In this document: piece by piece, positions 27,796 through 35,912 of the stretch
Position numbering within the stretch: position 1 is the first letter of the stretch
Layout: each line of letters starts with the position of its first letter
Assembly (NCBI GenBank): GCA_022652985.1
Contig: JALCRY010000001.1
Span: 1-64,000 of the forward strand
DNA from: Eubacteriaceae bacterium
GTDB lineage: Bacteria > Bacillota > Clostridia > Peptostreptococcales > Anaerovoracaceae
Length of the DNA stretch: 64,000 bases
Direction: 5' to 3'
The notes under the pieces: model-generated
Database searches by the model: none
The model's input: only the letters and a program-made list of their open reading frames with translations
Told to the model about the DNA's origin: nothing
Made by a program: the position numbers and the translations under genes

Positions 27796-28136
27796 ATGGG
27801 CAGACCAGGCGATCGCGTGCTTCGGCATGAGGAAAGTCCGGGCTCCGCAGGGCAAGGGTGCCGGATAACGTCCGGCGCAGGTAACTGTAGGGAAAGTGCA
27901 ACAGAAACATACCGCCGAAACAGTTCGGCTGTGGCAAGGTTGAAATGGCGAGTTAAGAGCTCACCGGCGGTGCAGAGATGCATCGGCCGTGTAAACCCCA
28001 CCCGGAGCAAGACCAAGACAGGGCTTTGAGTGCAGCGGCCCGCTGCCGCCCGAGAGGTAGGTCGCACGAACGTATCAGCAATGGTGCGTCTAGATAGATG
28101 ACCGCTTAATACAGAACCCGGCTTATGGTCTGCCCA
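27796..28136 (+). ncRNA. rnpB: RNase P RNA
   Basis: GAGGAAAGTCCGGGCTCC signature, ACAGAAACATACCGCC, GGTAAACCCCAC-type core, terminal pairing GGGCAGACCA...TGGTCTGCCC. Confidence 0.93.
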
Positions 28137-28163
28137 TATTATAAATTGAAATAAAGGATTCAT

Positions 28164-29597: not shown

Positions 29598-32500
29598 ATG
29601 AAGTTAGGTATTGACGTCGGCTCGACCACTGTAAAACTGGTCCTTATCGATGAAAATAACAAATTGCTGTATAAACGTTATGAAAGACACATGTCGAATG
29701 TACTGGAAAAAGCTGCGGAGCTTATGAGAGATCTTTACAGCGAGTACGGCGATATAGAGGTGAATGCAGTAATAACAGGCTCCGGAGGTTTGTCGCTTTC
29801 ACGGCTGATCGGGGTCTATTTTGAACAGGAGGTAATTTCGTGTTCAAAGGCCGTAGAGGTACTCATCCCGCAGACAGACTGCGCGATAGAACTCGGCGGT
29901 GAAGACGCGAAAATCACTTTCTACGGACAGACGATCGAACAGAGAATGAACGGTACCTGCGCCGGCGGCACAGGTGCTTTTATAGACCAGATGGCTATCC
30001 TGCTCAATACGGATGCGGCAGGAATGAATGAAGCTGCGAAAAATAAAAAGATGATTTATCCTATCGCAGCCAGATGCGGCGTTTTTGCGAAGACAGATAT
30101 ACAGCCTCTGATCAATGAGGGAACATCTGTCGAAGACCTTTCGGCTTCGATATTCCAGGCGGTAGTGAATCAGACTATCAGCGGGCTGGCCTGTGGTCAT
30201 CCGATAAGAGGCAACGTGGCATTTCTGGGAGGGCCGCTCTCATTTTTGAGCGAGCTGAGACAGAGATTTATTGAAACTCTTGATCTTTCCCCGGAACAGG
30301 TCATTTTCCCGGAGAATTCCAAATACTTTGTGGCCATCGGCGCGGCTATGCTTGCTGAGAAGCATGAAAAACACTCGCTGAAGGAACTGACAGAGATACT
30401 GGAGACGATGGACCCGGATGCTATGTCGGAAACAAAACATCTTCAGCCTCTCTTCAAGGACGAAGCTGATTATGCTAAATTCACGCAGCGTCACAACCGT
30501 GCGCAGGTGAACAAAAAAGATATTAAAAAAGCGAGAGGAAAACTGTATCTCGGTATAGATGCAGGTTCAACTACGACAAAGGCTGCCCTTATCGATGAAG
30601 ACAGAAACCTGCTGTTTCAGCATTATATGAGCAATGAGGGCAATCCTATCTCCGCTACGATGCAGATACTGAGGAAGCTTTATCCTCAGCTGCCGCCGAA
30701 CGCGTATATCGCGAATACATGCGTCACGGGATACGGCGAAGGGCTGATCAAAGCGGCTTTCAAAGCCGATATGGGAGAGATCGAGACCATGGCGCACTAC
30801 AAGGGCGCGGAGCAGTTCCTGCCGGGAGTCGATTTCATCCTCGATATAGGCGGACAGGACATGAAGTGCATGAAGATCAAGGACGGCGCTATCTACAGCA
30901 TCATGCTGAATGAAGCGTGTTCATCCGGCTGCGGATCGTTCCTCGAGACATATGCGAAGTCGGTCAACATGGATACCAGGCAGTTTGCAAAAGAAGCGAT
31001 TCTGGCCGATGCGCCGGTTGATCTCGGAACAAGATGCACGGTTTTCATGAACTCAAAAGTAAAACAGGCGCAGAAAGAGGGGGCGACCATCGGAGATATC
31101 TCCGCGGGTCTGTCTTATTCTGTTATCAAAAATGCGCTCTACAAAGTAATAAAGCTCAGAAATCCGGATGAAGCCGGGGAGAAAATCGTCGTTCAGGGCG
31201 GAACGTTCATGAATGATGCCGTTCTCCGCGCAATAGAAAGGATCATAGGCAGAGAAGTTATCAGACCTGATATCGCCGGTGTCATGGGCGCTTTCGGGGC
31301 CGCTATCATAGCTCAGGAGAATTACGTAGAAGACACCGAGTCATCTCTCATCACTCTCGAGGAAATGGATAAGTTCACAGTTGAGAATTCACATGCCAGA
31401 TGCGGAGGATGCGAAAACAACTGCCTGCTCACGATCAATAAATTCAATGACGGATCAAAATTCATTACCGGCAACAGATGCGAGAAAGGCGAGGGGAAAC
31501 AGAAGGGTCAGAGCGACCTTCCGGACCTTTATGATTATAAACTGAAGAGACTGTTCAGATATAAACCTCTGTCGGAGGAAGAATCGACGCGCGGAACCAT
31601 CGGGATCCCGAGAGTACTGAATATGTATGAGGATTATCCGTTCTGGTTCACTGTATTCACTGAGCTCGGATTCAGGGTGCAGCTCAGTCCGGTATCGAAT
31701 AAGAACATGTACGAATCGGGCATAGAAACTATTTCCTCTGATACTGCATGCTATCCTGCCAAGATGGTGCACGGGCATATCAGATGGCTTGTGGACAACG
31801 GCATCAAATGGATATTCTATCCTTCGATAAACTATGAGAAGGTGGAGGACAAGGCACAGCCGAATCATTACAACTGCCCTATAGTAGCAACATATCCCGA
31901 AGTTATCGCCAACAACATGGATGATGTCCTGGGAGATAATGATGTGAAATTCTCGCATCCATTCCTGCCGTATGACGATGACGCAAGACTGATAAAAGAA
32001 CTGCATAATCTGCTCAGCGGTATCGGCGTTTCGAGAATGGAAATTGACAAGGCGGTATCGGCAGGCAGAAAAGAACAGAAGAGATTCAAGGACGATGTCA
32101 AGAAGCAGGGCGAGTACGCGTTGAAATATGCGCATGATCACGGCAAGAAAGCTATCGTTATTGCCGGCCGTCCTTATCATGTGGATCCGGAGATCAACCA
32201 CGGCCTGAATAAGCTTATCGGGCAGTTTGATATGGTAGTGCTCACCGAGGATTCGATCGCACATCTCGGGCATCTTCAGAGACCGATACGCGTACTGGAT
32301 CAGTGGGTGTATCATTCGCGTCTTTACCGTGCGGCTGATTTTGTCGGCACTCAGGACGATGTGGAACTCATACAGCTGAATTCCTTCGGCTGCGGACTCG
32401 ATGCCGTTACTATAGACGAGGTCGAAGAACTGCTGCGCAGAAACAATAAGCTGTATACTGTGCTTAAAATAGACGAAGGCTCGAATCTGGGCGCGGCGAG

Positions 32501-33854
32501 GATCAGGATAAGATCGCTGAAAGCGGCTATGGAAGAGCGTGATAAAAACGATATAAAACATGTGGACAATCATGAATCATACGGCAGAGTGACTTTTACG
32601 AAGCAGATGAGGAAGGACTATACTGTTCTGATACCGCAGATGGCGCCTTTCCAGTTCCAGTTCCTGGAGACTGCTCTGGGAAGAGCGGGATACAAGGCGA
32701 AGCTGCTTCCTGAAGTTGATACGCATGCCGTAGATGAAGGACTGAGGTATGTAAATAACGATGCCTGCTATCCGACGATCGTCACGCTCGGACAGATAAT
32801 ATCCTATCTGAAATCAAATCCGGACAATCTCGATCTGAACAAGACAGCGTTGTTCATGTCGCAGACGGGCGGACAGTGCCGAGCATCAAATTATGTGGCG
32901 CTTCTGAGGAAGGCTTTAAAGGATCTCGAGATGGAACAGATACCGGTGGTTTCGGTAAATGCTTCCGGACTGGAGACGAACCCGGGATTCAAGATTTCCC
33001 TGGGACTTCTTCTCAGAGGAGGCATGGGCTTCGTTTACGGCGATGTCCTGATGAAAGTTCTCCTGGCGACGAGACCTTATGAGAAAGTCCCGGGTTCTGC
33101 TAATGAGCTTTATGAGAAGTGTGCAAGGCTGGCGCGCAGGAATGTATATACAGGCAATATGCGTGCGTTCAAGAAAAATATAAAGAAAATCGTTGAAGAA
33201 TTCGATGCGCTGCCTCTTGATGAAACTATTAAGAAGCCTAAGGTCGGAGTAGTGGGAGAAATACTGGTCAAGTATCATCCGAATGCCAATAATGATATTG
33301 TCGGCACCATCGAAAAAGAAGGCGGAGAAGCCGTGGTGCTCGAGCTGATAGATTTCTTCCTGTACGGCATGTACAGCAAGACCTTTAATTATGAACATCT
33401 TTCCGGTTCGTGGTGGCAGATGACATCCAATAAATTTGCTGTCTGGGCTATAGAAAAGTTCCGGAGCAGCGCGCGGGAAGCGCTGGAAAACAGCAAAAGA
33501 TTCGTGCCGCCGGCATTTATCAGCAAGACTGCCGAGGCGGCGCAGGAAGTCATTTCACTCGGAAATCAGTGCGGTGAAGGCTGGCTGCTTACAGGAGAGA
33601 TGGTGGAACTCATAGACAACGGAGTACCGAATATCGTTTGTCTGCAGCCGTTTGCCTGTCTGCCGAATCACGTTATGGGCAAGGGCATGCTGAAGGCTAT
33701 GAGGAAGAGGAATCCGGAAGCGAACATAGCGGCTATCGATTTCGATCCGGGCGCTTCCAATGTCAATCAGCTGAACAGGATCAAACTGATGATGGCCACG
33801 GCGTATAAGAATCTTGAAAAAGAAGACTCTAAGGTGTATACTGACAAAGCATGA
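29598..33854 (+). CDS. BadF/BadG/BcrA/BcrD-type ATPase / 2-hydroxyacyl-CoA dehydratase activase fusion (1418 aa)
   Basis: Two ASKHA ATPase modules ([40 protein letters not shown]) plus DUF2229-like and dehydratase-like C-terminal region. Confidence 0.9.
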
Positions 33855-34663: not shown

Positions 34664-34684
34664 TTAAATAAAAAGGAGCGCGCG

Positions 34685-35635
34685 ATGGGAAGAAAAGCAG
34701 TATTTTTTATCTGCGACAGACATGACTGGGGACACGTAAGTTTCAACGTCTGGGATATCCTGAGGGAAGAAGGTTTCCTGGACGGGGAGGCCGGTTTTAC
34801 TTTTGACGGCGGCAAAGTCATGAAACATATCGATGAAGCGGGAAACGAATATTACTTTGCACCGACAAAAATTGCCATATGTCTTGATTATCCGCATTAT
34901 CTTCCGGAGATGAATGAACATTTCAGCGATTTTGATGTGTCGGGAATGGTCACCTGGCATGAGGGAGCTTCAGCGCCTCAGAACGTTCTGACTGTACATT
35001 CTCTCGGCGATGTCGTATCGGGAATATATGATCCGGCCGACCCGCGCTGCATGAGGAACCTTATACTGGGCATCGACCGCGAAAGACAGGCTCTGAGACT
35101 GGATGATTATTCTGTGGTTACAGAAGCTACTCACTGGTCGGGGGCATACGACGACGACAGCGATCCTTCGCTGCTGATAAAATTCCCGGTGCCGATGATG
35201 GATATAGAAGTCGGTTCCGATCCTGCGAGCTGGGACGATATGGATGCCTGCAGAGCTCTGGCGAGAGGTCTGATGCATGTTTTCGATGATGACGGGCTAA
35301 CTGTACATAATCTTCTGTGCGTAGGCGGGATCCATTTCCAGCCGGACTGGGCAGAAGCGGTATTCCGGCAGTGGGACGGACAGACATTCGGAATTACACA
35401 TATCATCGCCAATCAGTGGCTGGTGGACGGAGAATACGAAAACGAGAAGGGCATTGCCCGGACTGAAGCCTGTATTTCCGCTATAGCCGGGGGCGTGGAG
35501 GCAATAGTCTTTCACGATAAAATGAAAGCTTGCTATAAAGATCTGGTAAGGACGATCGGCGCCGAATATGACATACCGATATATAAACATCAGCGGCTTA
35601 GAAATCCTGAAACTTTAGAGTTCGCAAAGCATTGA
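34685..35635 (+). CDS. DTD2/DtdA-like D-aminoacyl-tRNA deacylase family protein
   Basis: WHEGASAPQNVLTVHSLGD, SVVTEATHWSG, MMDIEVGSDPASWDD, LLCVGGIHFQPDWAEAV match the order of archaeal DtdA motifs (HrSe..LTvHtpGN, EATHHGP, vEIGSteeeW, GGGHYaP). Confidence 0.65.
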   Translation: MGRKAVFFICDRHDWGHVSFNVWDILREEGFLDGEAGFTFDGGKVMKHIDEAGNEYYFAPTKIAICLDYPHYLPEMNEHFSDFDVSGMVTWHEGASAPQNVLTVHSLGDVVSGIYDPADPRCMRNLILGIDRERQALRLDDYSVVTEATHWSGAYDDDSDPSLLIKFPVPMMDIEVGSDPASWDDMDACRALARGLMHVFDDDGLTVHNLLCVGGIHFQPDWAEAVFRQWDGQTFGITHIIANQWLVDGEYENEKGIARTEACISAIAGGVEAIVFHDKMKACYKDLVRTIGAEYDIPIYKHQRLRNPETLEFAKH

Positions 35636-35660
35636 AATCGGAAACGGTTTATGTTATCAT
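35632..35660 (+). promoter_or_regulatory. extended -10 promoter TTGAAA-N17-TATCAT
   Basis: TTGAAA 35632-35637, TG at -15/-14, TATCAT 35655-35660. Confidence 0.65.
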
Positions 35661-35666
35661 AGGACC

Positions 35667-35912
35667 AAGAAATATATGAAGATAATCCTGGAATGTACGT
35701 CGGGATGTATAATTCAACCTACATTATAAAATTGGGAGCCCAGTTATCCGGGTGCCAATGTACAGCCTCCTCTGAGAGGACTACAGAAGCAGGATGAGGG
35801 CACCCCCCTAACGAAGGCTAGGGCGTGAATTAACTTACTGACGGCACTTCGGGATTTTTATTTCTCCGAATTGCCGCGGTGCGCACCATTATTAACAGGA
35901 GGAGATCAAACA
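35667..35912 (+). ncRNA. putative structured 5' leader (riboswitch/attenuator candidate) of the FNT gene
   Basis: Multiple complementary segments: AATGTA/TACATT, ATTGGGAGCCC/GGGTGCCAAT versus GGGTGCC/GGCACCC, TCCTC/GAGGA, CCCTA/TAGGG, CGGCAcTTCGG/CCGAAtTGCCG. Confidence 0.55.

Follow-up and report, generated by a model that had tools for sequence, protein, structure and literature searches.

The window analysed here is a stretch of 64,000 nucleotides from an Eubacteriaceae bacterium, a gut-type fermenter (GCA_022652985.1, contig JALCRY010000001.1), and it carries on its forward strand a gene whose product is a full-length relative of the archaeal D-aminoacyl-tRNA deacylase DTD2, or DtdA (Table 1). 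The open reading frame and the four motifs quoted for it in the first-pass annotation were all present as given. The gene has its own ribosome-binding site and lies downstream of yebC, from which a hairpin separates it, and a 6S RNA gene follows directly at its 3' side. Elsewhere in the window we found a complete RNase P RNA and a large protein resembling acyl-CoA dehydratase activases, of a kind typical of amino-acid fermenters.

Table 1. Features of the DTD2-like gene, its product and its surroundings in the window.
Feature	Coordinates	Strand	Remarks
CDS, bacterial-type DTD2/DtdA homologue (PF04414)	34685..35635	+	ATG start, 316 codons (316 aa), stop at 35635; Pfam, AlphaFold2 model, Foldseek
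Ribosome-binding site AGGAG	34674..34678	+	6 nt upstream of the ATG; from the sequence
Terminator-like stem-loop	34637..34658	+	Between yebC and the DTD2-like gene; consensus match only
WHEG (residues 91-94)	34955..34966	+	Position of archaeal RHSS/RHSG; H92 invariant in both domains, W91 in bacteria only
HSLGD (105-109)	34997..35011	+	Position of archaeal HxxGN; H105 and G108 invariant; all bacteria have D for N109
EATHWSG (147-153)	35123..35143	+	Position of archaeal ExTHHGP; E147, T149 and H150 invariant; Trp replaces the second His in all bacteria
DIEVGS (173-178)	35201..35218	+	Position of archaeal FxE(I/L)GS; E175, G177 and S178 invariant; all bacteria have D for F173
GGIHF (214-218)	35324..35338	+	Position of archaeal GGxHY; G214, G215 and H217 invariant
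THIIANQWLV (238-247)	35396..35425	+	H239 is the His of archaeal GH; NxWL specific to bacteria
FHDK (276-279)	35510..35521	+	H277 invariant in bacteria, opposite Asp in archaea
6S/SsrS RNA gene	35682..35859	+	Directly 3' of the DTD2-like gene; 57.8 bits, above the gathering score
Promoter-like match	35632..35660		10/12; near the 6S RNA gene
RNase P class A RNA	27797..28140	+	Complete, bacterial
BadF/BcrA-type ATPase + DUF2229 protein	29598..33854	+	1418 aa; acyl-CoA dehydratase activase-like

The homology to DTD2, proposed in the first-pass annotation, is firm, since the Pfam, profile and Foldseek matches to this family are far beyond chance. The Pfam scan of the protein returned a single family, PF04414, which scored 85.6 bits (curated cut-off 33.6; E = 4.5e-24), with residues 81-298 aligned to profile positions 3-203, and the same cut-off was exceeded by 13 of the 13 bacterial members scanned. 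The NCBI DtdA equivalog model NF003072 gave 44.6 bits against a cut-off of 272, and the other DtdA equivalog models also scored below theirs; scores so far beneath the cut-offs indicate a divergent relative within the superfamily, outside the curated archaeal subfamilies. Among PDB sequences the closest match was AF0625 of A. fulgidus (1YQE; phmmer E = 7.6e-5), and a profile built from 13 bacterial members reached 1YQE with E = 3.9e-12 and 2GFQ with E = 1.7e-9, near full length and including the N-terminal half.

The AlphaFold2 model of the protein (pLDDT 91.8, pTM 0.92) agrees with this assignment. In a Foldseek search of the PDB, ranks 1 to 4 were taken by three chains of 2GFQ and by 1YQE (E 2.7e-18 to 2.7e-17, TM 0.71-0.83), so that the two solved archaeal DTD2 structures clearly lead the fold matches. 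The next tier, MTA/AdoHcy nucleosidases (MTANs) with E of 1e-5, lies about twelve orders of magnitude behind; to these enzymes and to zinc amidases there is only a distant likeness of fold (TM ~0.3-0.5), without any DTD2 motif. Thus, both the HMM and the AlphaFold checks that had been suggested gave significant matches, and neither outcome named in the first-pass annotation as a refutation was seen, the core residues being retained. The clostridial proteins share with PH0006 (2GFQ) and AF0625 (1YQE) the same fold, a near full-length alignment and the same His/Glu/Gly core, but they are only ~20-28% identical to the archaeal proteins.

The active site shows both what was kept and what was changed. 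An alignment of 35 bacterial proteins with three from archaea (AF0625, PH0006 and that of Natronorubrum bangense) showed 13 archaeal core residues to be invariant in 35/35 bacterial sequences: H92, H105, G108, E147, T149, H150, E175, G177, S178, G214, G215, H217 and H239. Where archaea have THHGP, RHSS, GN, FxE and GGxHY, the window protein has THWSG, WHEG, GD, DxE and GGxHF. The fixed replacements, each in 35/35 copies, are R91 to W, S94 or G94 to G, N109 to D, the second His of THH to W151, the following G to S152, F173 to D and Y218 to F218. Archaeal R91, the second His of THH, the G and P of GP, and Y218 are replaced in all or nearly all bacterial copies, and the resulting bacterial signature reads WHxG for RHSS, THWSG(S) for THHGP and GD for GN. 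The bacterial proteins differ from archaeal DTD2 also in an insertion of ~10 residues between THWSG and DxExGS. The changes from EATHHGP to EATHWSG and from GGGHY to GGIHF, already pointed out in the first-pass annotation, are therefore real, and the WHEG of the window protein in the place of RHSS/RHSG is a further consistent difference beyond those listed there. Its idea of a divergent branch is likewise supported; the bacterial copies are one clade with clade-wide fixed swaps, far from the archaeal proteins.

According to DSSP assignment of the AlphaFold2 model, strands 85-91, 101-106, 143-146, 171-176, 206-213 and 233-241 have the core residues at their ends or immediately beyond. This modelled placement fits one active-site crevice, since alpha/beta hydrolases of this kind would be expected to have their active site at the strand ends. 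The DTD2 of P. abyssi is reportedly a D-Tyr-tRNA deacylase with two zinc ions, which makes an alteration of the metal site conceivable; judging from the alignment, the loss of one His and the gain of two Asp could alter either this site or the acyl pocket. As one adjacent His and several neighbours are swapped in every bacterial copy, the substrate, the metal content or the chirality preference may differ from those of the archaeal enzymes.

The gene is rare and patchy in Clostridia. About 36 clostridial relatives were found, closed chromosomes included. Of 300 genomes sampled across the phylum Bacillota, the window genome alone was a carrier (0/299 others), and carriers numbered 12/391 in the class, 13/298 in the window's own family, 2/2 in the genus and 12/58 in the Anaerotignum family, each count including the genome on which the sample was centred; control archaea were positive (4/4) and control bacteria negative. 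The gene occurs in a single-contig genome of 4.3 Mb (G883) and in an isolate, Anaerotignum lactatifermentans An390, and also on the closed chromosome (2.63 Mb) of Acetoanaerobium noterae (NZ_CP154629.1), which is listed as a plasmid in PLSDB. Contamination of the assembly with archaeal DNA might be considered for a family best known from archaea, but it is refuted by the bacterial genes on the same contig (RNase P class A, 6S RNA, YebC, FNT, MatE and TrmK) and by the presence of the same gene in many bacterial genomes, closed ones included, and we give it practically no credence. Moreover, pairwise dN/dS among close pairs of bacterial copies was 0.014-0.114, and in the window protein's own close pair the proteins are 80% identical with synonymous sites saturated. 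The bacterial copies are under strong purifying selection, and the window gene is not a pseudogene.

In a maximum-likelihood tree with three archaeal sequences and a midpoint root, all bacterial copies formed one clade, with very long branches between it and the archaeal proteins. The window's own family was scattered across the bacterial part, well-supported branches forcing at least 4 changes. A single bacterial clade with a scattered family would fit, without proving it, one old entry into Clostridia followed by horizontal transfer and loss. A viral or plasmid vehicle was also sought: phage records and viral contigs gave no match, and the sole match in the plasmid collection was the A. noterae sequence, whose entry as plasmid pTPELB2 carries chromosomal genes such as those for DTD1 and PrdA and is a mislabelled chromosome. 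The archaeal DTD2 of N. bangense lies on an 828 kb plasmid (NZ_CP031306.1), adjoining an ftsZ gene. Two copies deserve separate mention. An identical protein was found in genomes of two families (G440:C90 and G741:C35), and since G440:C90 is a contig of 3.7 kb, the G440 copy may be a misbinned contig or a very recent transfer, and no argument here rests on it. In G592 the copy is shortened, also internally, to 188-203 aa, with THWSG kept and the GGxHF block absent, and it is probably decaying.

In the literature DTD1 is assigned to bacteria, and DTD2 to archaea and plants (PMC10954443). A search for a dtd1 gene, another check proposed in the first-pass annotation, found a normal one as a separate gene of the assembly to which the window belongs (189.6 bits). 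DTD1 was present in 23/27 carriers, the four without a match being genomes 71-86% complete, and in 10/10 carriers that are at least 90% complete; thus, the DTD2-like gene is an addition to DTD1 and not its replacement. The two proteins presumably overlap in function, the removal of D-amino acids from tRNA, but are not related in sequence: the 316-aa protein had no match to the DTD1 family PF02580 in the Pfam scan, and BLAST found no similarity between it and the DTD1 of the same genome. DTD2 has been described from archaea and land plants, with plants as the only group to possess DTD1 together with DTD2 (PMC10942605). With DTD1 in every near-complete carrier, both this statement and that of PMC10954443 need amending, since as statements of gene content they do not hold for these Clostridia. 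The plant enzyme (GEK1) is similar to the clostridial one in belonging to the DTD2 family and in sharing its organism with DTD1, but the clostridial copy is carried by bacteria and has diverged strongly from the archaeal proteins.

The DTD2 family and its fold are already known, and general databases probably already carry automatic bacterial matches to PF04414. Our search of the literature on bacterial DTD2 or DtdA found no relevant description, and a clostridial branch that is coherent and conserved, has an active-site signature of its own and is present alongside DTD1 appears to be undescribed in the literature searched.

We consider it probable, with some reserve, that the gene encodes a second freestanding and probably metal-dependent deacylase of D-aminoacyl-tRNA or of its adducts, belonging to a distinct clostridial branch of the DTD2/DtdA superfamily which would have been acquired long ago and later spread sporadically among Clostridia. 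In this tRNA-recycling hydrolase, a cluster of His and Glu residues (H92, H105, E147, H150, E175, H217 and H239) at the C-terminal ends of the central beta-strands would bind zinc and/or activate water, and the ester between a D-amino acid, or an N-modified D-amino acid, and the 3' end of tRNA would be cleaved; D-Asp-tRNA, suggested in the first-pass annotation, would be a candidate substrate. The enzyme would be a second, chemically different proofreader working alongside DTD1. The changes of RH to WH and THH to THW, together with N109D and F173D, probably adjust the metal site or the acyl pocket. The tRNA substrate, the D-selectivity and the zinc are predicted, and the homology, fold, retained core, purifying selection and co-occurrence with DTD1 are observed. 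No conserved operon partner was found among carriers, as expected of a freestanding enzyme; neighbours are shared only between close relatives, and the surroundings vary from yebC to hrcA/dnaK, a signal-recognition/tRNA-methyltransferase cluster and ATPase or iron-transport genes (all but yebC named by sequence inspection).

Since the fixed changes adjoin conserved histidines, the main rival is a hydrolase of the same fold with a shifted substrate on tRNA, which would remove another non-canonical acyl group (from N-acylated, glycyl or other modified aminoacyl-tRNA) rather than act on ordinary D-aminoacyl-tRNA. The ~10-residue insertion, the long branch between bacterial and archaeal clades and the retention in the same genomes of DTD1, which already handles D-aminoacyl-tRNA, also point in this direction. 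However, all the core residues common to the archaeal proteins are retained, and plants too keep DTD1 and DTD2 (PMC10942605), so that coexistence alone is no sign of a new substrate; we regard a shifted substrate as a somewhat unlikely, though serious, alternative. Slightly more doubtful, and put forward tentatively, is that the re-wired active site, with THW for THH, might proofread a tRNA-linked error removed by neither DTD1 nor archaeal DTD2, in bacteria that would run two non-homologous deacylases side by side. An activity away from tRNA, for instance on a small ester or amide of a D-amino acid or on a cell-wall-derived metabolite, by a nucleosidase- or amidase-like hydrolase of the same fold class, seems very improbable. 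The second-tier fold matches are to nucleosidases and weaker ones to zinc amidases, and the protein is acidic (pI 4.7) without obvious basic bias, but those matches are weak and reflect a shared fold, archaeal DTD2 sequences are acidic as well (pI 4.3-5.4), and the motifs specific to DTD2 are kept.

Within the preferred reading of a second D-aminoacyl-tRNA deacylase, the enzyme could mainly recycle aldehyde-modified D-aminoacyl-tRNA in fermenters that make acetaldehyde, as had been suggested in the first-pass annotation. Archaeal and plant DTD2 do recycle such adducts (PMC10942605), and as clostridial anaerobes the carriers belong to a group of fermenters. However, the idea gained no support from co-occurrence with AdhE: a full-length bifunctional AdhE above cut-off was found in 3/36 carriers and 7/36 non-carriers, which is no enrichment, and no full-length AdhE in the window genome passed the cut-off, although AdhE is a single proxy and many of the genomes are incomplete. 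D-proline reductase showed no association either (5/37 carriers and 5/36 non-carriers above cut-off). As the non-carriers for both enzymes were chosen manually within the same families and orders, the test is coarse, and we consider a mainly aldehyde-directed role unlikely.

A conserved clostridial DTD2 branch in genomes with DTD1 means that bacteria can hold both genes. The question has been raised whether DTD2 reached plants by way of "an unidentified intermediate bacterium" (PMC10942605), and this branch provides a concrete set of sequences to be placed in a phylogeny of the origin of plant DTD2. It is also a natural variant of the active site for dissecting the chemistry of DTD2.
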